Shown: in pieces, positions 14,602 through 54,862 of the stretch
Position numbering within the stretch: position 1 is the stretch's first letter
Layout: every line of letters begins with the position of its first letter
Assembly: GCA_018645325.1 (NCBI GenBank)
Contig: JABGOU010000011.1
Location: 25,353-89,352, forward strand
DNA: 64,000 nucleotides
Direction of reading: 5' to 3'
From: Desulfobacula sp.
GTDB taxonomy: Bacteria > Desulfobacterota > Desulfobacteria > Desulfobacterales > Desulfobacteraceae
The notes under the pieces: generated by a model
Databases searched by the model: none
What the model was told of the DNA's origin: nothing
The model's input: the letters and a program-made list of their open reading frames with translations, nothing else
Translations under genes and position numbers: made by a program

Positions 14602-15900
14602 CTAAAAATCAAGCTCAATTTGATTACGAATGAGATCATCAAAATTTTCACGCTTTCGTATAAGCCTTGGTTTGCCATTAATAATTAACACTTCGGCAGG
14701 CTTTGGTCTTGTATTATAATTTGATGACATACTAAATCCATAGGCTCCTGCATTTTTAATCATGATTATGTCATCTTGTCTGACTTTGTTTAATGTACGA
14801 TGTACCCCAATATTGTCAATTTCGCATAAATTTCCAACAATATTATATTTTTCTAATTCTCCATCAGGATTTGTAATGTTTATTATCTGATGATAAGCAT
14901 CATACATCATGGGGCGCAGAAGATGATTAAATCCTGTATTTGTGCCGACAAAATTAATGAAACCATTTGTTTTTAAAACCACTGCTTTGGCAAGCAAAAT
15001 TCCTGATTCACTCAAAAGGTATCTTCCAGGCTCAAACCATATTTTTATTTTTTTCCCAATTGAAACACAGAACTTATCATATTCTTTTTTTAATATTTTC
15101 CCAATTTTATCAAGCTCAACCACTTTATCATCTGGATGATGCTTAACCATAATTCCGCCGCCAAAATCAACATATTCAAGGTGATTAAACAGTTTAGCAA
15201 TCTTAAAAACCGTCTTAACCCCTTTTTTAAATACCTCTTCATTTAAAATAACGTGGCTTGAATGTACATGGACACCATTAATTTTTATATTATATTTTTC
15301 TACAAGCTTTAAAACTTTGTCAAACTGAGTCAGAGAAATGCCGAATTTTGATTGATTATGCCATGCTTCAACTTGTTCCTTACTAACATCATCATAATGT
15401 TCCTTATTGACTGATGCAAAGTTAAGAGAACTTAAATCAGTTGTTCTAGTTTCTATTTCTGAAATCATATTTGGGTTCAGCCGGATACAGACAGGATATG
15501 TGTTTTGAAATTTTCTTCCAAATGCCTCAAGGTTCTGAAGGTTTTCAATATTAATTGCCACACCAAATCCAACTGCATCCCTGATCTCACAAAATTCCAC
15601 AACATTGGGTGTGAAAACGATTTTTTCCGGTTTGAATCCTAGTTTCAAGCCCATTTTAATCTCAGGGATGGATACTGTATCAATTCCAGCACCCAGGGTC
15701 AGCATATATTTCATGATACTCATGTTGGTACACGATTTTACCGCAAACATAATTTCATGATCAATTCCAGAAAAAGCCTTAGTGAAATTTTTAAACTGCT
15801 GTTTGATCACACCGGCATCATAAACATAAAGCGGGGTCCCGAATTGTGCACACACATCATGTAAATCTAATCCCTGTACATTGTATGGATAGTTTTTCAT
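14602..15900 (-). CDS. lysA: PLP-dependent diaminopimelate decarboxylase-like protein
   Basis: Fold-III PLP decarboxylase of 432 aa. The Schiff-base lysine is Lys55 in FAVKSCTN, where most homologues read AVKAN. The substrate/PLP motifs HSSHV, VDFGGGI and WFEPGRYL are present. The partner-subunit cysteine motif reads GNLCEIDNIG. These fit LysA, which makes lysine from meso-diaminopimelate, but resemble a divergent branch. The start overlaps the stop of the upstream kinase-like gene by 4 bases (ATGA), so the two are coupled. Whether the substrate is diaminopimelate is unproven. Confidence 0.75.
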   Translation of the reverse strand: MKNYPYNVQGLDLHDVCAQFGTPLYVYDAGVIKQQFKNFTKAFSGIDHEIMFAVKSCTNMSIMKYMLTLGAGIDTVSIPEIKMGLKLGFKPEKIVFTPNVVEFCEIRDAVGFGVAINIENLQNLEAFGRKFQNTYPVCIRLNPNMISEIETRTTDLSSLNFASVNKEHYDDVSKEQVEAWHNQSKFGISLTQFDKVLKLVEKYNIKINGVHVHSSHVILNEEVFKKGVKTVFKIAKLFNHLEYVDFGGGIMVKHHPDDKVVELDKIGKILKKEYDKFCVSIGKKIKIWFEPGRYLLSESGILLAKAVVLKTNGFINFVGTNTGFNHLLRPMMYDAYHQIINITNPDGELEKYNIVGNLCEIDNIGVHRTLNKVRQDDIIMIKNAGAYGFSMSSNYNTRPKPAEVLIINGKPRLIRKRENFDDLIRNQIELDF

Positions 15901-19710: not shown

Positions 19711-20490
19711 TTAAATTCTGCCTTCAACGATGAGATCTGCCAGCATTTTTTTATAGTTGACCCCGGCTTTTTGGAACCCCTTTGTTCCATATTTCATATT
19801 GCCTTCCAGAACATAAAACTGGTTCTGGTGTTCAATAATATCAATTCCTACATCATTCCATCCGCATTTAAAAGCTGTCATTCGTGCAAGATCAAGGGCT
19901 TTTTGAGGCAAAGGATCAAAGCTTATGGTTCCTCCCTGGGAAATATTGGTTTTAAAATTGTCTTTGACAGCAGTTCGCCAATAGGCAAGCCTGATTTTTT
20001 TGCCGATAATAACAACCCGCATATCCCTTTTAATGGGGAAATACTCCTGGATATAGGCCGGGCCTTTGTTCTTTAAATACAGGCTAAGATCCTCATTGTT
20101 TTGAATCAGGTATACATCATTGCCTTTGGCTGATCCTCTGCCTTTTTTTGCAATAAAAGGGAAGGCAAAGCTCAAAAGGATAGTCTGCTTTTGTTTTTTT
20201 CCATAAAAAATTTTTGTTTCAGGATGGGGAATACCGAGCATATTAAAGGCAGCAGTCTGTTTTATCTTGTTCAGGGCAAATTTGTAAGTATGAAAACTGG
20301 GAAAAGTTTCTTTTCCCATAGCATTAAACAGGTCAGCATAAAATGCAGTAGGATAATAGATTTTTTTTGCATTCAGGATCAGATTTTGTTCCCAGGTAGA
20401 ATAATCCTGGAAATTGGGTTTAAAGCCCAGAGTTTGAATTGATGGGTATTTTATTAACCTTGCTCCCAGAGCAACAGGCCGGCTGGTCAA
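19711..20490 (-). CDS. RimK-like ATP-grasp protein
   Basis: A 259-aa ATP-grasp protein. Visible elements: KFALNKIKQTAAFNMLGIPHPET (linker helix before the ATP domain), FIAKKGRGSAKGNDV (glycine-rich lid loop), YIQEYFPIKRDMRVVIIG (nucleotide contact), and GIDIIEHQNQFYVLEGN (metal-binding end). These correspond to RimK-type ligases, which add amino acids or glutamate to proteins or small molecules using ATP. The substrate is unknown. No partner gene is obvious apart from the convergent unknown gene. Confidence 0.75.
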   Translation of the reverse strand: MTSRPVALGARLIKYPSIQTLGFKPNFQDYSTWEQNLILNAKKIYYPTAFYADLFNAMGKETFPSFHTYKFALNKIKQTAAFNMLGIPHPETKIFYGKKQKQTILLSFAFPFIAKKGRGSAKGNDVYLIQNNEDLSLYLKNKGPAYIQEYFPIKRDMRVVIIGKKIRLAYWRTAVKDNFKTNISQGGTISFDPLPQKALDLARMTAFKCGWNDVGIDIIEHQNQFYVLEGNMKYGTKGFQKAGVNYKKMLADLIVEGRI

Positions 20491-45255: not shown

Positions 45256-46293
45256 ATGTTCTCAATCAAAAGAGTCCTTGTAATATTAATTTTCCTGTGT
45301 CTGCTTTTAACCCCAGGTCTTGTTTTTTCTCAAGATTTTTCCAAAAATTTAAAACAAGGGTTATATGCTCACTTTGACACAACTAAAGGGTCAATTATTT
45401 GTGTTCTATATTATAAACAGACTCCCATCACCGTCATCAATTTTGCAGGGCTGGCTCTTGGAACAATCGCTTCAAAACAGAATTCTTCTAAAAAATATTA
45501 TGACGGGCTTATTTTCCACAGGGTGATCAAAGATTTTATGATCCAGGGGGGAGATCCCACAGGAACAGGAAGAGGTGGACCTGGATACAAATTTCCTGAT
45601 GAGTTTGTGAAAGAATTAAAACATGATTCTCCTGGGATTCTTTCCATGGCCAATGCAGGCCCCGGAACCAATGGCAGCCAGTTTTTCATTACCCATAAAG
45701 CAACTCCCTGGCTTGATAATAAACATACTGTTTTTGGAAAAGTGATTAAAGGCCTGGATGTGGTCAATGAAATTGAAAAAGGCGATAAGATTAATAGTTT
45801 GACCATTATCAGGGTTGGAGAAGATGCCAAGGCGTTTAAAACAGACCAGAAAAGTTTTGATAAAGCCATGAGCAAGATTACAGCCAAAAAAGAAGTAGAA
45901 AGAAAAAAGCGTATGGCAAAATTTGAAACGGAAATGTATCTTCGCTACCCGGATGCAACAAAAACAAAATCCGGCCTGATGTATGTCCAGCTAAAAAAAG
46001 GCTCCGGCCCAAGCCCCGGACCGGGCGCCGCAGTAAATGTTCATTATGCCGGCAGATTAAAAGATGGCAAAGTGTTTGACTCTTCTTACGACAGGGGAAA
46101 ACCAGTAGAGTTTAAGGCGGGTGTCGGCCAGGTTATTAAAGGATGGGACCAGGCATTGCTGGCAATGAAAAAAGGTGAAAAAAGGACCTTGCTGATTCCT
46201 TATGAACTTGCTTATGGAGAACAAGGTTACCCCAAAGTTATTCCTCCCCGATCCGATCTTATTTTTGATGTGGAGTTGATTGATTTCAAGTAA
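45256..46293 (+). CDS. Periplasmic cyclophilin-FKBP fusion peptidyl-prolyl isomerase
   Basis: A 345-aa protein. The signal peptide is [18 protein letters not shown] followed by an FSQ cleavage region. Residues ~35-195 are a cyclophilin domain ([47 protein letters not shown]). Residues ~250-345 are an FKBP domain ([49 protein letters not shown]). A charged coiled linker joins them. I start at the ATG 45256 after AAGGAG. Both classes of prolyl isomerase in one chain probably fold secreted proteins. Confidence 0.9.
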
Positions 46294-47560: not shown

Positions 47561-47731
47561 TTACCAGGCATTTTCATCAGGATTAAAGTCATCACTTAAA
47601 TCATTTAGAAACGTATCATCCATCGGAATATCCTGATATCCGCCAAAGCTGTTATCAAAGCCACAAATCGGACATTCATATACATATTGTGGTAATAGAA
47701 CTCCACAGCCTAAACAAAAATCACAAGTCAT
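47561..47731 (-). CDS. 56-aa Zn-ribbon protein with acidic Trp-ended tail
   Basis: A small gene whose ATG overlaps the stop of the upstream decarboxylase by 4 bases (ATGA), so it is the last gene of that operon. Cysteines at 3, 6, 9, 20 and 23 give CDFCLGC and CPIC, a zinc-ribbon pattern. The second half is acidic (MDDTFLNDLSDDFNPDENAW). Size and layout recall amino-group carrier proteins such as LysW, but the LysW EDWGE end is absent, so identity is not claimed. It could alternatively be a rubredoxin-like or regulatory protein. Confidence 0.75.
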   Translation of the reverse strand: MTCDFCLGCGVLLPQYVYECPICGFDNSFGGYQDIPMDDTFLNDLSDDFNPDENAW

Positions 47732-49035
47732 AACCTTTTCCTTTCAATTCTTAAACCTGTTAATAAGTCATCAGTCTCATGCAATATAACTTTTGGTGAC
47801 TTACCCGTATTACCGATAACAACAACCTTAGGTAGTGGTTTGATAAAATCCTGCCTTAAGCTGTAAGTATAGGCACCCTGGGTTGGAATCATGAGCACAT
47901 CACCTTCAGATATTGAACCGCCAAAGTACGCATAGCCCCAGACATCATGAGGTGTACAAAGCGATCCCAATATGTTGCAGTGTCTCTCTATGTTTTCAAA
48001 ATTACTTAAGTTTATGACAGGGAAATAATCTGTTTCAAAGCGTTCCCAGCCGATTATATTTGTACCTGCATCTGTGATAACAAGATCTTTATCCTTCTTG
48101 TCAATTACCTGCAAAAGAATATGCATGGAATCATTACAAATCCAGCGCCCAGGCTCCAGGCAGATGGCACACTCAGTTTGGTTTAAAATGTTTGACTTTA
48201 ATGCCAGTGCAAGTTTATTTGCAAAATCATCTATACTATGCGCTGGCAGGTGATAATGTTCTAATGAGTTATCTCCTACCAGCCACTCCCCTTGCTGAGG
48301 CCAGTAACCACCGCCAATATCGATAAACTCAATCGAATCGAGAAAATCCATTGGCATGGATCTTAAACAGGCGCCCAAAATCTTAATAAATTCTATCTGG
48401 CGATCGGGTTCCAGATTCCATGATGAATGACACTGCAGTCCTTTAAATTCCAAATTCGGAACCGCTTTTATTTCACGATAACACATCTGCAATTGATCCA
48501 ATGGAATCCCAAACTTTCGCCATAAACCTGATGGATTATTATTTAACCGGACACCAACCTTAACACGATCATTTCCGGTTTTTAATAATCTTTTGATTCT
48601 CTCAATCTCGCCTATACTGTCTAAAAGAATTGTCACCTTTGAAGAATATTTCATTGCCAGCTTAAGCTCTTCCTCGGTTTTACCAGGACCGCTGAAAATG
48701 ATATCGCAGGCACCATTGGAAAGCGCTCTTGAAAGTTCTATACCGCTTGAAACATCAATACCAAATCCTTCTTCTACAAGTATTTTTGTTATCAACGGCA
48801 GGTTATTACTTTTCATGGCAAAATAGCATCTTACTTTTGGCAATCTTGTCACAAAAGCCTCTTTAAACTGCTTAGCCTTTTGGACCAAAACGTCAGTTTC
48901 AAGTATATAGAGTGGAGAGCCATATTTTTTTACAGCTCTTAAATAACACTCTTTCCTCTCAACATAAGTTTCGACAAATGAATCCAGAAAATCTTTTGAC
49001 ATTAAGGACATTTTATTGCTTTTATTTACTGTCAT
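47728..49035 (-). CDS. PLP fold-III amino acid decarboxylase
   Basis: A 435-aa enzyme of the LysA/ornithine/carboxynorspermidine decarboxylase fold. The Schiff-base lysine is Lys75 in CYFAMKSNN. Other motifs are GFGIDVSSGIEL, FIDIGGGYWP, CLEPGRWIC, and the partner-subunit loop GSLCTPHDVWG, then a GAYTYS end. It differs from the LysA-like protein at 14602. The start shares one base with the upstream ATP-grasp stop (TAATG) and the end overlaps the Zn-ribbon gene by 4. The substrate is unknown; the operon context speaks for a dedicated pathway rather than lysine synthesis. Confidence 0.85.
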   Translation of the reverse strand: MTVNKSNKMSLMSKDFLDSFVETYVERKECYLRAVKKYGSPLYILETDVLVQKAKQFKEAFVTRLPKVRCYFAMKSNNLPLITKILVEEGFGIDVSSGIELSRALSNGACDIIFSGPGKTEEELKLAMKYSSKVTILLDSIGEIERIKRLLKTGNDRVKVGVRLNNNPSGLWRKFGIPLDQLQMCYREIKAVPNLEFKGLQCHSSWNLEPDRQIEFIKILGACLRSMPMDFLDSIEFIDIGGGYWPQQGEWLVGDNSLEHYHLPAHSIDDFANKLALALKSNILNQTECAICLEPGRWICNDSMHILLQVIDKKDKDLVITDAGTNIIGWERFETDYFPVINLSNFENIERHCNILGSLCTPHDVWGYAYFGGSISEGDVLMIPTQGAYTYSLRQDFIKPLPKVVVIGNTGKSPKVILHETDDLLTGLRIERKRL

Positions 49036-50312
49036 TATCGTATTTCCACTTTTAGGCGCTGCCGTATCAGAAGACTTTGAGTTTCCGGATATTTACTATT
49101 GTCGGGCTCAATAATAATATGACCCAGCAGCCATGAATCATAATCCTCAGGCGGCATTATAATTTTATGCCCTGGTTTCCGAATGATACGAATCTGCTTT
49201 ACCCGCTTATCATCAACCAGTAAATTAGTATTTAAACCATTGAACACTCCAGCTTTGTTGGCGTGTATCCGCAATCCGATATGAGGTTTAAAAGGTATAT
49301 ATCCATTGACTGGTAATGTCTTTTGTTCGGCAAAATCCAAAGTCAGCCCAAGAATATCTATATTGCCGGCTTCTTTAAGCAAAAAAGGGAGACAATCCCC
49401 GCCTGGTCTTGGAGTCATTTCTATAAGGACTGGAAAATGGTCTTCCACAATAAAATCAACCATACAGATTGCTCTTTTAAGTCCTAATGACTGCGCAGCA
49501 TTTAATAGGACTGTTTCAATACCTGAGATACTCATTTGACCCGGCAGGGATGCAGGAAGCATATAGCCTGAAACAGTTCCAAAAGGTTGACTATCGGATT
49601 TTATTTTCCGGGAAAGCCGAATGATTTTAACATTTTTATTGTCGACGATGAAATCGCAGCTATACTCTGATCCTATTATACATTCTTCAGCAAGCATCAA
49701 AAAATTTTTAGAAGTATATTGATTGAACAGCCTATTTTGCTCTCTATCAACTAATCCCTTTTTCAAAGTCTCAAATGCCTGGTCACAATCCTCGGAGGTC
49801 TTACTTTTGAACACCAGTTCACTACCGCTGCCACAAAATGGTTTTAGTACTATTCCATTTTTATACTTTGTTAAAAACTGCCTGGCTTCCTCTGCTGAGT
49901 TTACAGGGAGGACGGCAGGACAGCGGATACCTGATTCTTCCCATATTTTTTTTGAAATATACTTGTCCCTGCAGTTCTGAATAGCTTGGATATCGGGATA
50001 GCTTACTTTAAATTTTGATGCAATCACGGATGCAGTTTCCATGGATTCGCAATCAAAACAAGCCACTCCTGTTATTCTCTGGTTCCATTTCTCAAGATGC
50101 TTTTTAAGTTCTTTTTTAATAAATTCAATATTCTCAAGCCGGATAATGAGCTCATCTGCTGGATCAGGTGAAGATTCTTTTGCCTTCTTTCTGACCTCTG
50201 GCTCGGTTAAAAAAAGAGCTCTTCCCGGATAGGCTGTCTGAATCCAATCTATATAATCTGAAGTTGTCCCGACAACCAGGACTTTATCAAGCGCATAATG
50301 CTTCTTTTTCAT
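49035..50312 (-). CDS. ATP-grasp ligase
   Basis: A 425-aa protein: an N-terminal pre-ATP-grasp domain (about 1-110), then ATP-grasp motifs. These are NCRDKYISKKIWEESGIRCPAV, GIVLKPFCGSGSELVF (nucleotide loop), LAEECIIGSEYSCDFIVDN, and VDFIVEDHFPVLIEMTPRPGGDCLP with the metal-binding glutamates. This is the carboxylate-amine/thiol ligase class (carnosine-synthase-like). A longer frame upstream reads into the GNAT gene, so I use ATG 50312 with GGAG nearby. It overlaps the GNAT gene by 26 bases. It may join an amino acid to a carrier or peptide. Confidence 0.85.
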   Translation of the reverse strand: MKKKHYALDKVLVVGTTSDYIDWIQTAYPGRALFLTEPEVRKKAKESSPDPADELIIRLENIEFIKKELKKHLEKWNQRITGVACFDCESMETASVIASKFKVSYPDIQAIQNCRDKYISKKIWEESGIRCPAVLPVNSAEEARQFLTKYKNGIVLKPFCGSGSELVFKSKTSEDCDQAFETLKKGLVDREQNRLFNQYTSKNFLMLAEECIIGSEYSCDFIVDNKNVKIIRLSRKIKSDSQPFGTVSGYMLPASLPGQMSISGIETVLLNAAQSLGLKRAICMVDFIVEDHFPVLIEMTPRPGGDCLPFLLKEAGNIDILGLTLDFAEQKTLPVNGYIPFKPHIGLRIHANKAGVFNGLNTNLLVDDKRVKQIRIIRKPGHKIIMPPEDYDSWLLGHIIIEPDNSKYPETQSLLIRQRLKVEIR

Positions 50313-51249
50313 GGGAACTCCATTTAAACTGTGTGACAGCCTTGTTGATGGATATCTCATACAACGGCATAGGAGACAGATGGAACCTTTTTTTCCAGTT
50401 AAAATCACCGCAAAGAAAATCAACCATATCAAACCGCTGCTGGCAAGACCATTCCATGTGATGAAGATTAATGATTTTCGCAATGCCTGGGAATTCAGCG
50501 TTTGTTCCACCCGCAAATAAAGTATAGGTATTATTGAATATACCCCCCATATCCACTGCAGCAATTTTCCCTCCAACCAGGATTGTGACGATTCTGAGCA
50601 TTCCCATCTCACTTAAAAAAGATGCCAGCCGATCAAACGCGTTATAGAATCTTGGATCATCAAAATAAGAATCATTGGCAAATGCCTTTTGATTCATTGC
50701 AAACATATGTTCAAGATCTTTTATCTTGTTAAATCTGAAAGTAAGTCGCTGACTTTCCAATTTAGCAAATTCATTCCGGATTTTTTTTCGGGACTTCCCG
50801 GAAAAACCAAGCCAATAGTTTTCAAATAAATAATCGTACATCCCTGGATAAAAATGATAGCCGATTTCGTCCTCCCTGACATGGTGATCCCCTTTGAGAA
50901 TCGAATCCCAGGATAAATACCTTAAATGTAATGAACTTGGCACAGCGTCGAGTAATATTTTAAATACTTCATGGTTTTCTGCAACAACACGATTTTGCTC
51001 CAGCCATGTTTTTCCCTTCCATGTTTCACCTGGAAAAAATACAAATTTATCCGAATCCTCATTCCAACTCAGTGGCAGAAAGCCCTGTATACTTCCACCG
51101 TTTTCAATTGTATGAAACTGCAAAGGATTTAAATAGGCCTCATGAAAACAGAAACGAACCTGCCAAAGGTCAAAAATCCCTTTAGCCGGCCAGACTTTTT
51201 CCCAGATTTGCCGGCATTGTTCTGGATCGCTATATATCTCATGTCTCAT
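50287..51249 (-). CDS. GNAT-fold (FemAB/BioF2-like) acyltransferase
   Basis: A 320-aa protein with a central SGKSRKKIRNEFAKLESQRLTFRF segment and a C-terminal GNAT core (KIAAVDMGGIFNNTYTLFAGG, then NLHHMEWSCQQRFDMVDF and GDFNWKKRFHLSPMPLY). It resembles BioF2-like GNAT acyltransferases related to FemAB transferases that use aminoacyl-tRNA or acyl donors. It probably transfers an acyl or aminoacyl group. The donor is not visible. It follows the SpeD-like gene with a 12-base gap. Confidence 0.8.
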   Translation of the reverse strand: MRHEIYSDPEQCRQIWEKVWPAKGIFDLWQVRFCFHEAYLNPLQFHTIENGGSIQGFLPLSWNEDSDKFVFFPGETWKGKTWLEQNRVVAENHEVFKILLDAVPSSLHLRYLSWDSILKGDHHVREDEIGYHFYPGMYDYLFENYWLGFSGKSRKKIRNEFAKLESQRLTFRFNKIKDLEHMFAMNQKAFANDSYFDDPRFYNAFDRLASFLSEMGMLRIVTILVGGKIAAVDMGGIFNNTYTLFAGGTNAEFPGIAKIINLHHMEWSCQQRFDMVDFLCGDFNWKKRFHLSPMPLYEISINKAVTQFKWSSHEKEALCA

Positions 51250-51261
51250 ATTTCTGCTCCT

Positions 51262-51651
51262 TTATTGTCTATAAGTCACATGCAGCTTGGACAAAGACCC
51301 TCCAAAGTATTCCTGGGCAAAAGTTCTGACTTTTTCCGGATCATAAGCTTTACAACTGAATACATCGAGATAGGTTACATTAGATTTGTTTGCAAAATGT
51401 GCAGAAATCAATGATGTCTCTATCAATTGGACCATGGAAAAGCCTGCAACCTTTTCATCTTCTCCAAAATGAATAACCTGAGTTTCTCCGAACCGTTTCA
51501 TCTCGATCAAATCACAGAGTTCAATAACAAATTTTTTGATAAGTTCTGCATCTCGGATTTTATCAGGATCGCACCCATAAATATCTATTGCTGATGCTAT
51601 GCCCCAGACCTCCGGTGCCACTTCGTATTTAATTGCTGACGATGTATTCAT
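51262..51651 (-). CDS. Pyruvoyl-type decarboxylase of the AdoMet decarboxylase (SpeD/SpeH) family
   Basis: A 129-aa protein matching the short AdoMetDC class. Using the Bacillus SpeH spacing (Ser63, His68, Cys83), Ser80, His85 and Cys100 fall at the same intervals in VQLIETSLISAHF and YLDVFSC. The proenzyme would self-cleave between Thr79 and Ser80; the family normally has Glu-Ser. The residue after the serine is Leu in place of His. Related homologues have become ornithine or arginine decarboxylases, so the substrate may not be AdoMet. There is no aminopropyltransferase gene nearby. Confidence 0.82.
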   Translation of the reverse strand: MNTSSAIKYEVAPEVWGIASAIDIYGCDPDKIRDAELIKKFVIELCDLIEMKRFGETQVIHFGEDEKVAGFSMVQLIETSLISAHFANKSNVTYLDVFSCKAYDPEKVRTFAQEYFGGSLSKLHVTYRQ

Positions 51652-51684
51652 TTCAATAATCCTTTCATTTTTTTTTAAAATTTG

Positions 51685-51846
51685 TTACCACTCTTCAAAT
51701 CCGATTTTCTGTTTCTGCGATTTTTTGTTTAGCTTACGTCGAAGATGTTTGATTTCCATTCTATCCTGCCAGTCAAGCGTTTCATCATAAGTATCCCTGA
51801 ATTTTGGAGCTTTATGCTTGGTTTCTCTGAACTTTTCTCTGGCCAT
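51685..51846 (-). CDS. Basic 53-aa protein, first gene of the sigma-54 operon
   Basis: The ATG at 51846 is preceded by AGAGG at the right spacing; a TTG 36 bases upstream is less likely. The protein is very basic (MAREKFRETKHKAPKFRD..., RRKLNKKSQKQK) and ends IGFEEW. No family recognised. It could be a nucleic-acid-binding or ribosomally made peptide substrate. Its final acidic-Trp end recalls the ending of the Zn-ribbon protein at the other end of the operon (DENAW), which may be coincidence. Confidence 0.55.
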   Translation of the reverse strand: MAREKFRETKHKAPKFRDTYDETLDWQDRMEIKHLRRKLNKKSQKQKIGFEEW

Positions 51847-51915
51847 TTTAGTTTTCCTCTTAGATTCTTTTTCATTATTCAAGTTTATATAAGCGGTTGC
51901 GCTCAGAAAACAGTT

Positions 51916-51931
51916 AGCAGGATGTATGCCA
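51916..51931 (-). promoter_or_regulatory. Sigma-54 promoter of the decarboxylase/ligase operon
   Basis: On the minus strand TGGCATACATCCTGCT: GG and GC exactly 10 bases apart, matching TGGCAC-N5-TTGC at most positions. Transcription should start near 51905, about 60 bases before the first gene (ATG 51846). A sigma-54 activator gene is encoded divergently. Confidence 0.72.
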
Positions 51932-52192: not shown

Positions 52193-52210
52193 AAAAAGAT
52201 GTGGGGATTT

Positions 52211-53626
52211 ATGCTCGTAAGAATCGCTTGTGCCATCAAAGAAAAAAAAATTTTTTCCCACATAAAACACTATTTGTCAAAATTGGATGTGCAGCTTATA
52301 AGCAACCACGATGGAAAAATGCCTTGGCAGGAACTTGCAACAAGCTGCGCAGATATTTTCATTGTCAGTCTATCCATTATCCCTAAACCCATAGATTCAA
52401 GCATTGATCTGATTAATAAATTACCGGAGAAACCAATTTCAATCGTGCTTCATGAGGAAGATTCTTCCGAAGAACAAACCAAGCTCCTCTCTAACGGTAT
52501 TGATGTTGTATTATATTCCGGTGTATCGCCGGAAAGCCTTTGTGAGGCTATCGAAAGCACAATTGAATCCAGGCGGCAGTTCAATTATTCTATGCGCGTT
52601 GACCGCCGGGGTAGATTTCAGCCCCGGTTGAATGATTTCATTTCCAACAGTAAAGCTATGCAGGTCTTTTTATACGAAACACAACAATTTGTAAAAAGTG
52701 ACTCCAGCATACTATTACTCGGTGAAACCGGTGTGGGCAAAGAACATCTTTCAAAGGCAATCCATGCTGAAAGCAACCGTGCAAGTGGACCTTTTATACC
52801 CATAAATATGGCTGCAATACCCGAACAATTAATGGAAAGTGAATTGTTTGGCCATGAACGTGGTGCGTTTACAGGTGCAGTTCGCTCAAGACGAGGAGCA
52901 TTTGAAATGGCTCATCAGGGTACTTTATTCCTCGATGAAATAGGTGATATGTCCATGTCAATGCAGTCAAAACTGCTAAGAGTATTACAGGATCTAGAAT
53001 TTAGGCCTGTCGGTAGTGAAAAATCCGTTTGGGTGGATGTCAGAATCATCGCAGCGACAAATAAAAACCTTAAAGAAGCAATTGAACAGGGTGGCTTCCG
53101 TCAGGATCTGTATTACAGACTAAGTGTAGTTTCTCTCACATTACCACCTTTGAGAAAGAGAAAAGAGGATATACCATCTTTGGCCAATCATTTTTTGGGC
53201 ATGTTGACTAAAAAAACCGGGAAAAATATCACCAGATTTTCAAAAGAGGCAATGAGTGCTCTTTGCAGATATCGATGGCCGGGCAATATCAGGGAACTTA
53301 TGAATGTTATTGAGCGAGCTGTTCTGCTTTGCAGGCTTGATATAATTTCAATTCAGGATTTTCCGCAATCATTTGCAGGGGACACCCAACCTTTACTGAA
53401 TTCTGATAAGAATAATCTAATGCTTACAGCTGATTGGGAAAATAAGAGCCTATCTGAAGTAAAAAATGAAATTATTGATCAAATCGAGAAAGAGTATCTT
53501 CAAAAAGTTCTCATCAAAACAAAAGGAAGAGTAGGCCAAGCTGCTCAGATTGCAGGCATCCATCCAAGAGGGTTATATGGAAAAATGAAAAGATACGGTA
53601 TTGATAAATCCAAGTATAAATTATAG
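52211..53626 (+). CDS. Sigma-54-dependent transcriptional activator
   Basis: A 471-aa NtrC-type protein. The N-terminal ~130 residues have a receiver-like fold, but the position of the phospho-acceptor Asp reads IFIVSLS, so it is probably not phosphorylated. The AAA+ domain has GETGVGKEHL (Walker A), GAFTGA within HERGAFTGAVRS (sigma-54 contact), and LFLDEIGDM (Walker B). The C-terminal Fis-type helix-turn-helix is GRVGQAAQIAGIHPRGLYGKMKRYG. The start at 52211 follows GGGGA; an ATG at 52199 is possible. It likely activates the divergent operon. Confidence 0.95.
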   Translation: MLVRIACAIKEKKIFSHIKHYLSKLDVQLISNHDGKMPWQELATSCADIFIVSLSIIPKPIDSSIDLINKLPEKPISIVLHEEDSSEEQTKLLSNGIDVVLYSGVSPESLCEAIESTIESRRQFNYSMRVDRRGRFQPRLNDFISNSKAMQVFLYETQQFVKSDSSILLLGETGVGKEHLSKAIHAESNRASGPFIPINMAAIPEQLMESELFGHERGAFTGAVRSRRGAFEMAHQGTLFLDEIGDMSMSMQSKLLRVLQDLEFRPVGSEKSVWVDVRIIAATNKNLKEAIEQGGFRQDLYYRLSVVSLTLPPLRKRKEDIPSLANHFLGMLTKKTGKNITRFSKEAMSALCRYRWPGNIRELMNVIERAVLLCRLDIISIQDFPQSFAGDTQPLLNSDKNNLMLTADWENKSLSEVKNEIIDQIEKEYLQKVLIKTKGRVGQAAQIAGIHPRGLYGKMKRYGIDKSKYKL

Positions 53627-53635
53627 CTCCTTTCT

Positions 53636-54862
53636 TTAATTTCGGATGATATTGCCTTCTGCCATCACCAAAATCGGGAATGCCCCCAGATGAAAAGGAT
53701 CCTGATTCCATACTATGAGGCTTGCATCCTTCCCGGTTTCAATAGTTCCCAACCGATCTTCAAGATTAAGTATCCTTGCATTCTCAAATGTGATCAAGCT
53801 TATTGCTTTTTCAGGGGACATTTCCTGGATTAAAAAATATTTCAAGGAATCTCTGAGATGATGAGCAAGGACAACCGGGTGATCAGTCATGAGGCCGAAT
53901 TGGACACCTGAATCCATCAGGGGGATTACATTTTTATAGGATGCCTTATGTAATTCGACCTTGTAATCCAATGAGCTCATGGGACCATAAACTACGGGTA
54001 TATCGTTTTTTAAAAGTTCCCTGAAAATTTCCACATTGTGGATACTAGAAGCGTGCTCTGCCGTAATCTTCAGATTATATTTTTTTTTTAGGTCAATTAA
54101 GTATAAGGCATCATCTTCTTTATGCACATGGACCTTTATTGTTTTCTGTACAGTGAGTAGTTCAAATAATGCCCACTCCTCAGCAGAAAGAGCCAATTTA
54201 TATTCGTCATTAATCCATGCTTTATTCTGCAGCATTTCTTGATTTGAAAATTTTTTTCCATTTAATTCACTGTGTAAATGAAACAATGCTTTTTCTTTTT
54301 TTATTTTTGCCTGCTTTTCTTTTCTAAGGACTTTGGAAAATTCTTTCTCTAGAAGGCTTGCATTGCCCATACGGGTATTGTGACGTCCTGGTTTGGATTT
54401 GTATCCAGCTCTGGGATTATAGCCCAGGGCCATTTTAAAGCCAAAATCATCCACAACAGCCCCATTCCTGTTTAAAGCAAAATTTCTAATTGTAATGGCT
54501 TTCCCCCCGATCAGATTTCCACTGCCTGGGATAACACAACTGTATAAGACACCAAAATCAACTGCTTCAGTAAAAGCCCTATCATCAAAATATATACTGT
54601 CCACTGGGTTTTGCATGGGGGTAATTGTTTTAAGAGTATCGTCAACTTCTGATTCTTCTTTAGGTTCCCCCTGGCGTTCCATTCCAATATGTGAATGTGG
54701 ATCAATGAACGCTGGGGTAACAATACCTATTATGCCGCTTTTGTATTTCTTTTTTGACACATCAACAATCTTACCATTTTCTACTACTATGGTCGCATCT
54801 GTTGATTTCCTTTTACCGTCGTACAGAAGCTCTGCATGAATTATTGTTTTTGAAAATGACAT
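53636..54862 (-). CDS. Amidohydrolase of the imidazolonepropionase-like group
   Basis: A 408-aa TIM-barrel metal-dependent hydrolase. The metal-binding motif is DPHSHIGMER after VTPAFI. A central HVHKEDDALYLIDLKKKY segment and HASSIH supply more histidines. The aspartate near LMTDHPV completes the site. It ends in an IETGKDASLIVWNQDPF amidohydrolase C-terminal motif. The substrate is unknown. It converges with the regulator gene and may cleave or cyclise the product of the neighbouring operon, which is inference. Confidence 0.85.
   Translation of the reverse strand: MSFSKTIIHAELLYDGKRKSTDATIVVENGKIVDVSKKKYKSGIIGIVTPAFIDPHSHIGMERQGEPKEESEVDDTLKTITPMQNPVDSIYFDDRAFTEAVDFGVLYSCVIPGSGNLIGGKAITIRNFALNRNGAVVDDFGFKMALGYNPRAGYKSKPGRHNTRMGNASLLEKEFSKVLRKEKQAKIKKEKALFHLHSELNGKKFSNQEMLQNKAWINDEYKLALSAEEWALFELLTVQKTIKVHVHKEDDALYLIDLKKKYNLKITAEHASSIHNVEIFRELLKNDIPVVYGPMSSLDYKVELHKASYKNVIPLMDSGVQFGLMTDHPVVLAHHLRDSLKYFLIQEMSPEKAISLITFENARILNLEDRLGTIETGKDASLIVWNQDPFHLGAFPILVMAEGNIIRN

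Follow-up and report, generated by a model that had tools for sequence, protein, structure and literature searches.

A recurring sigma-54-associated operon in Desulfobacula sp. and its candidate role in putrescine conjugation

What does an operon make that combines two unrelated decarboxylases, one pyruvoyl-dependent and one dependent on pyridoxal 5'-phosphate (PLP), with an ATP-grasp ligase and a GNAT enzyme? The question is raised by six adjoining minus-strand genes, here called A to F, in a stretch of 64,000 nucleotides from Desulfobacula sp. (assembly GCA_018645325.1, contig JABGOU010000011.1; the whole stretch is referred to as the window). A preliminary description, made from the sequence, had drawn attention to this gene set. 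In our judgment, the chances are about even that the operon encodes a dedicated, sigma-54-controlled putrescine-conjugate pathway of the D-E-C type, that is, ligase, decarboxylase, and transferase.

Gene order, conservation, and spread

Coordinates and junction sequences confirm six minus-strand genes at window positions 47561 to 51846, touching or overlapping as first described (Table 1). Gaps of 33 and 12 bases separate A from B and B from C, respectively, while C and D overlap by 26 bases, D and E by 1 base (TAATG), and E and F by 4 bases (ATGA).

Table 1. The operon, its promoter-like site, and the divergent activator gene in the window
Feature	Window position	Strand	Length (aa, amino acids)	Description	Basis
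A	51685-51846	-	53	Charged small protein	Family matches by phmmer
B	51262-51651	-	129	SpeDC-type pyruvoyl-dependent L-ornithine decarboxylase proenzyme	PF02675, 8.5e-24
C	50287-51249	-	320	Double-GNAT FemX-type, probable aminoacyl-tRNA-dependent transferase	PF13480, 7.1e-19
D	49035-50312	-	425	ATP-grasp ligase, L-amino-acid-ligase type	PF13535, 2.8e-13
E	47728-49035	-	435	Alanine-racemase-fold PLP decarboxylase, FigC/BtrK-like	Sequence and model fold
F	47561-47731	-	56	Cys pairs (Zn-ribbon-like by eye), acidic tail; accessory	
Sigma-54 (-24/-12) promoter-like site TGGCATACATCCTGC	51917-51931	-		TGGCAT-N5-CTGC	Sequence pattern
Divergent sigma-54-dependent activator	52199-53626	+		AAA+ plus Fis-type helix-turn-helix	PF00158, 1.5e-69; PF02954

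Neighborhoods were read at 40 loci (the window, L032 to L050, and L055 to L074), and B-C-D-E occur in the same order and on the same strand in 31 of them (in L037 a contig end cuts B). The incomplete loci hold only a remnant of B (L034 and L060), have C but no B (L058, L063, and L068), are without B and C and retain A-D-E (L064 to L066), or run into a contig end (L044). Another 18 fetched stretches yielded 11 new complete B-C-D-E loci, the rest being two duplicates, two contig-end cuts, one masked stretch, one decayed operon (L107), and one stretch without the operon. A chance association of the genes is ruled out by this shared order (31/40 and 11/18), and the two unrelated decarboxylases, the ATP-grasp ligase, and the GNAT enzyme that had been noted in one operon do co-occur across genomes. 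As for the genes expected to travel together, the SpeD-like and ATP-grasp genes are found together in the 31 loci, and the Zn-ribbon gene F in only 4 of the 40.

Pairwise distance matrices of B, C, D, and E correlate (r = 0.76 to 0.93, 42 loci), as expected of a unit inherited together, though shared ancestry inflates r and common descent alone gives high values. The 42-locus count omits ten loci (duplicates L104 and L105; L044, L097, and L106 at contig edges; L034 and L060 with B remnants; the masked L091; the decayed L107; and L108, with no operon), and two-domain fusions were not counted as B. For a further locus comparison, eight duplicates or fragments were left out, and rows covering less than 70% of the query were dropped.

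The distribution of the operon is wide yet patchy, with B-C-D-E loci coming from records labeled as five phyla. In 97 genomes (the window's own and its relatives), D was matched 38 times, and 34 of these matches were better than 1e-25. Searching named genomes for E recovered 20 loci, including those of Desulfospira joergensenii (Desulfobacteraceae according to NCBI) and Desulfobacter vibrioformis, as well as metagenome-assembled genomes titled Planctomycetota, Omnitrophota, Sumerlaeota, and Seleniivibrio (Deferribacterota). The window's genome falls into one family-level group (f1) with G034, a genome with coordinates matching those of Desulfospira joergensenii (L032, G389). When spread was measured with an E profile at a threshold of 1e-120, matches were seen in 11 of the 297 sampled genomes of the window's phylum, in 5/237 and 3/294 from the phyla of L039 (Omnitrophota) and L035 (Planctomycetota), and in 1/40 and 5/50 from those of L046 (Sumerlaeota) and L048 (Seleniivibrio).

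Several loci show irregular forms of the gene set. The decayed operon L107 (genome G033) has an open A frame, fragmented B and C, no detected D, and a partial E. The genome that holds A-B-C-D-E at L057, where the C frame is shortened, carries a second, fragmentary D and a second SpeDC-like gene on a separate contig (G047:C12:2334-4000). In L091 (G483, from the Omnitrophota sample), the E homologue borders a long masked (N) stretch that makes the neighborhood unreadable, and an open frame of 24,386 aa reported there is probably an effect of the masking.

Sigma-54 control

The sigma-54-type promoter that had been proposed ahead of the operon was borne out. The distance from TGGCATACATCCTGC to the ATG of A is 70 bases, and 27 of the 40 loci have the pattern TGG[CT]A-N7-TGC within a 650-base region surrounding the operon start. 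Random windows of that size drawn from these loci contain it in 3.5% of cases, and shuffled sequences in 0.9%; at least 4 of the 27 sites sit more than 350 bases upstream and may be due to chance. A homologue of the activator scoring above 400 bits is divergent and upstream in 24 of the 40 loci, and the window itself holds both the site and a nearby activator of the sigma-54 type. The first ~137 aa of this activator match no Pfam family, and the sigma-54 interaction domain and the Fis-type helix-turn-helix follow downstream. We consider it well supported that the operon is transcribed from the -24/-12 promoter with the help of the divergent AAA+ activator.

The support for this control extends to the window and its relatives but not to the family as a whole, because neither regulator nor -24/-12 site was seen in L039, L035 (where the upstream sequence comprises 808 bases only), or L048. 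In L046 the regulator is present with no -24/-12 site. Clustering of neighbors placed the regulator family in 28 loci, in a listing that also contains many antisense frames, and no other neighbor was comparably conserved, the next non-overlapping family (a sensor-protein-like frame) being found in 14 loci only. Sigma-70-like and terminator-like sites were about as frequent as in shuffles. An amidohydrolase gene (window positions 53636 to 54862) adjoins the activator and is present in L032, L033, and L059 too, and a second, weaker sigma-54 activator match is found in L058, L062, and L106.

B and the supply of putrescine

Although B belongs to PF02675, it is not an S-adenosylmethionine (AdoMet) decarboxylase, scoring 35.3 bits against a TIGR03330 cut-off of 75.65, and its motif also contradicts that assignment. 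In its available text, PMC10407285 reports that many PF02675-type proteins are pyruvoyl L-ornithine decarboxylases, with Gln, Thr, Phe, and Tyr as diagnostic residues. This signature, within Q..ETS.I[ST][AG]HF...Y.DVFSC, is present in 42/42 operon B proteins, the residues being those named in the text of that paper. The catalytic Ser, His, and Cys of class 1b SpeD are retained as S80, H85, and C100, which are invariant in 17 aligned members and were aligned by eye to S63, H68, and C83 of T. maritima. Furthermore, B shares 58 to 61% identity with the C-terminal domains of four SpeD-SpeDC fusions found in related genomes, and in the fusion of Desulfotignum phosphitoxidans, as described in PMC10407285, the S229A exchange, which lies in the second SpeD domain, left no ornithine decarboxylase activity. 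Signature, domain identity, and the S229A result together make putrescine the likely product of B, and its homology to the assayed SpeDC argues strongly that B decarboxylates L-ornithine.

Across the 97 genomes, single-domain SpeDC-like genes are found in 27 of the 34 that have D (adjoining D in 24 of the 27) and in 5 of the 63 without D, one of the latter being G033 with its decayed operon. The SpeD-SpeDC fusion is also carried by many genomes of the window's family. We judged the second domain of 22 SpeD frames from D genomes by the residues Q, T, S, H, F, Y, and C rather than by a stricter pattern that also demanded DVFSC. Intact domains were seen in 14 frames (G007, G008, G011, G012, G014, G016, G018, G020, G023, G038, G047, G049, G052, and G053), and catalytic or signature residues are lost in the other 8 (G028, G032, G034, G041, G042, G043, G046, and G055; frames L124, L125, L126, L128, L129, L130, L131, and L136), with no SpeDC domain visible in the G034 frame (L126), which has another C-terminal region in its place. 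Among the 24 genomes with SpeDC adjoining D, 9 have an intact fusion, 5 an altered or domainless one, and 10 none that was found. Because an intact fusion exists there too, operon B looks like a private putrescine supply in those nine genomes. The idea that B is lost only where a fusion supplies putrescine fits just 2 of the 7 genomes that have D but no standalone SpeDC and was rejected.

In five loci from genomes of the same genus (L058, L062, L064, L066, and L106), the SpeD-SpeDC fusion lies divergent, a few kb upstream of the operon, and in the first four it stands beside a metallo-beta-lactamase-like gene with a THSHQDH motif. A single modest spermidine-synthase-like match was found in the window's own genome (PF01564, 38.8 bits against a cut-off of 22.9).

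The ligase D and the decarboxylase E

The family profile of D matches two solved structures about equally, namely 4dim (2.9e-28), a protein labeled phosphoribosylglycinamide synthetase, and 3vot (4e-28), the L-amino-acid ligase BL00235. With profile positions 92 to 436 of 438 aligned to BL00235, D combines an ATP-grasp core with near full-length similarity to a proven ligase and is predicted to join an amino acid to an amine, using ATP.

E is nearest to FigC/FslC by both sequence and fold, with BtrK and diaminopimelate decarboxylase close behind in the score ranking; the best fold match of its model (mean predicted local distance difference test score, pLDDT, 88) is 7kh2, the N-citrylornithine decarboxylase FslC/FigC (9.6e-30). 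The PLP lysine K75 (48/48) and the catalytic C360 (47/48, with one gap) are conserved and, together with the fold, mark E as an alanine-racemase-fold PLP decarboxylase, like the enzymes of the FigC/SbnH/BtrK clade. E is nevertheless not the rhizoferrin enzyme FslC itself (NF041039, 121 bits against a cut-off of 500). According to the available text of PMC7857480, the substrates of FigC, SbnH, AcsE, MccE, and BtrK are amino acids or intermediates to which a large group has already been attached, and by analogy we infer that E decarboxylates a side-chain-linked amino acid.

Compared with the LysA of the window, E has W-E-R-F-E-x-D-Y and C-T-P-H-D in place of R-P-x-x-Y and C-E. The C-x-x-H-D motif is common to E and FigC, whose His357 is predicted in the text of PMC7857480 to contact the ligand. 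Three acidic residues are conserved in E, namely E331 (46/48), E334 (44/48), and D336 (44/48); in printed alignments, FigC has no acidic residue in this region, and a Glu of BtrK aligns with D336. Ornithine decarboxylase binds the distal amine of its substrate with an Asp near the region that corresponds to E331-D336. The conserved acidic residues of E suggest that its substrate may be positively charged at the distal end, as a putrescine amide would be.

A more ordinary explanation would be that the operon serves general polyamine or lysine synthesis, with E as a carboxyspermidine or diaminopimelate decarboxylase. The window's genome fits such a role, since searches of it recovered no SpeD-SpeDC fusion and no carboxyspermidine decarboxylase scoring above cut-off, and B could then supply all putrescine there. 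We regard it as very improbable: E scores 33 bits against the NspC cut-off of 409 (TIGR01047) and 151 against the LysA cut-off of 297.9 (TIGR01048), the window has a LysA of its own above cut-off, and, to our knowledge, neither D nor C has a role in a spermidine or lysine pathway. Nor does the operon act as a substitute for carboxyspermidine decarboxylase, as several operon genomes hold nspC above cut-off too (e.g., G007, G026, G027, G028, and G034). The separate diaminopimelate decarboxylase gene lies at window positions 14602 to 15900 (TIGR01048, 329 bits) and is adjoined by an open reading frame (ORF) of 98 aa.

The transferase C and the small proteins A and F

Sequence comparison of C with the PDB gave nothing meaningful (one chain at E = 0.53 in one search and none in the other). 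Its AlphaFold2 model (pLDDT 91.6) is a double GNAT and, by Foldseek, has the FemABX-type fold, the best matches being FemX, the aminoacyl-tRNA-dependent peptide synthases Sbb17 and Sba18, 2hqy (Bacteroides), and MprF-type synthases. Weak Pfam matches to FemAB_like (15.8 bits) and LPG_synthase_C (17 bits) fall below their cut-offs. FemX-like enzymes occur in antibiotic pathways, as reported in the available text of PMC12945691. The GNAT enzyme had been expected either to acylate or to aminoacylate; with aminoacyl-tRNA-dependent transferases as its best model matches, aminoacylation is the likelier activity and acylation the less likely one, and C probably transfers an aminoacyl group from aminoacyl-tRNA.

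A is highly charged, with 16 Lys or Arg and 10 Asp or Glu among its 53 residues. Relatives were found by phmmer in 17 of the 40 loci, with three weaker matches and one recognized by eye (L040). It is improbable, though worth stating, that A is the substrate or carrier on which the pathway works, D ligating putrescine or an amino acid to its C-terminus, acidic side chains, or lysines and E and C acting on the modified protein. A heads the operon, persists in the reduced A-D-E operons L064 to L066, and ends in Trp in 10 of the 17 relatives, and BtrK, a relative of E, works on a carrier-linked substrate in the account of PMC7857480. Against this, the limited occurrence of A includes none recognized upstream of the Omnitrophota (L039) or Planctomycetota (L035) operons, and its C-terminus varies: two or three residues follow the Trp in 5 of the 17, one relative ends in Tyr, and one in neither way.

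F does not regularly belong to the operon, and we treat it as accessory. LysW-type carriers end in a conserved Glu. The preliminary description had suggested that F might be a carrier or scaffold. One form of this would be an amino-group carrier similar to LysW, with D as the loading enzyme, which would suit a small acidic protein in one operon with D. The suggestion found no support and is now barely credible, since F is rare (the 4 loci given above) and its four relatives differ at the C-terminus (ENAW, EELN, ETGC, and DYLD).

A proposed route to putrescine conjugates

In the route that we propose, B would turn L-ornithine into putrescine (step 1), and D would use ATP to link an amino acid to putrescine as an amide (step 2). 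Since enzymes like E require that both the alpha-amino and the alpha-carboxyl group be free, the simplest attachment point would be the side chain of Asp or Glu, through its carboxyl. E would then strip the alpha-carboxyl (step 3) to give beta-alanyl- or 4-aminobutanoyl-putrescine, so that the product of D and E would be an amide look-alike of spermidine or homospermidine, to which C would add an aminoacyl group taken from aminoacyl-tRNA (step 4). A would be a small charged partner and F an accessory protein, and for D, E, and C, both the order and the substrates are proposals. Asp or Glu plus putrescine is the simplest combination because it uses the product of B; we put this specific product forward only tentatively.

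Several observations weigh against this route. The side-chain argument is an analogy with FigC and BtrK. Some of the loci listed above have lost B or hold just a remnant of it. The FemX-type top matches of C share only 9 to 16% identity with it, and we infer the aminoacyl-tRNA donor with caution because acetyl-CoA-dependent enzymes also appear, lower down, in its fold list. In 15 of the 24 genomes with SpeDC adjoining D, the window's included, B may be a general ornithine decarboxylase. Moreover, among the seven D genomes without a standalone SpeDC, an intact fusion is present only in G012 and G016, the fusion domain is altered in G041, G042, and G043, and none was found in G015 (56% complete) and G067; in five related genomes, D and E are thus retained although no intact SpeDC gene was found. 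The PLP-dependent ornithine decarboxylase of PF01276 was not found in G041, G042, or G067, in a search that did not cover alanine-racemase-fold enzymes, and was above cut-off in 1 of the 10 genomes checked (G043, 30 bits). G041 and G042 hold nspC above cut-off, which implies a putrescine source there. D and E can thus persist without any recognized SpeDC, which weakens the putrescine link of D-E and does not refute it.

The same five genomes would be explained by an ornithine route as in Francisella rhizoferrin, in which D would acylate or aminoacylate ornithine, or another diamino acid, at its side-chain amine, and E would decarboxylate the conjugate to an N-acyl diamine, with putrescine from B serving as a second building block or general supply. 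The closeness of E to the N-citrylornithine decarboxylase FigC/FslC, including C-x-x-H-D, also speaks for it. If E itself made the putrescine unit, however, an ornithine decarboxylase adjoining D (24/34 genomes) would be partly redundant; furthermore, D is an ATP-grasp enzyme of the amino-acid-ligase type and not a nonribosomal-peptide-synthetase-independent siderophore (NIS) synthetase, and E has E331, E334, and D336 where the printed alignment gives FigC none. We take the ornithine route to be a serious but unlikely alternative to the putrescine-conjugate pathway.

Other features of the window

Two further genes outside the operon are unusual. A RimK-like ATP-grasp gene (window positions 19711 to 20319) encodes just 202 aa and is apparently without the N-terminal domain, and a single ORF at positions 45256 to 46293 fuses cyclophilin and FKBP domains, two unrelated prolyl isomerases.

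Comparison with known systems

Within the literature searched, mostly titles and abstracts, we found no paper on this gene set, which agrees with the preliminary description, where no known pathway could be named; an earlier mention in the amidoligase survey of Iyer et al. (2009) is possible. What we observe is a recurring unit in sporadic genomes for which that literature offers no function. Each enzyme kind is already known and the combination appears to be new, with a realistic chance of a new polyamine-like metabolite class. Its full form, a class made without aminopropyl transfer and marked by an Asp- or Glu-putrescine amide, a tRNA-derived aminoacyl extension, sigma-54 control, and its own pyruvoyl ornithine decarboxylase, is a speculative possibility. 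If true, it would be a polyamine-like route in which amide ligation and decarboxylation take the place of AdoMet or aspartate semialdehyde, it would link tRNA charging to polyamine chemistry, and SpeDC would have been recruited beyond spermidine and homospermidine.

The closest likeness for E is found in FigC/FslC and SbnH, which share the alanine-racemase fold (PMC7857480), FigC being the best match in sequence and fold and having C-x-x-H-D in common with E. As far as those systems are described there, the operon differs in having no NIS synthetase gene, in the acidic residues near the specificity region of E, and in its sigma-54 control. For B, the likeness is to SpeDC as presented in PMC10407285, with which it shares the central motif; the main text of that paper makes no mention of a ligase or GNAT. 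The double-GNAT fold of C recurs in Orf11, VlmA, and DhpH-C (PMC12945691, in its available text) and, going by its PDB title, in Sbb17; these serve antibiotic or peptidoglycan pathways, and C resembles its top fold matches at the low identity given above. D shares the ATP-grasp fold of BL00235 and BacD, and the BL00235 match spans most of the D profile.

The partner genes of BL00235 and BacD differ from those of the operon. In the butirosin module, BtrJ is the ATP-grasp ligase. BtrJ and BtrK likewise pair such a ligase with an alanine-racemase-fold decarboxylase. According to the available text of PMC7857480, BtrK acts on a side-chain-linked glutamate. Whereas the operon is without an acyl carrier protein gene and its D is closest in the PDB to BL00235 and 4dim, the C-T-P-x-D motif is common to E and BtrK.

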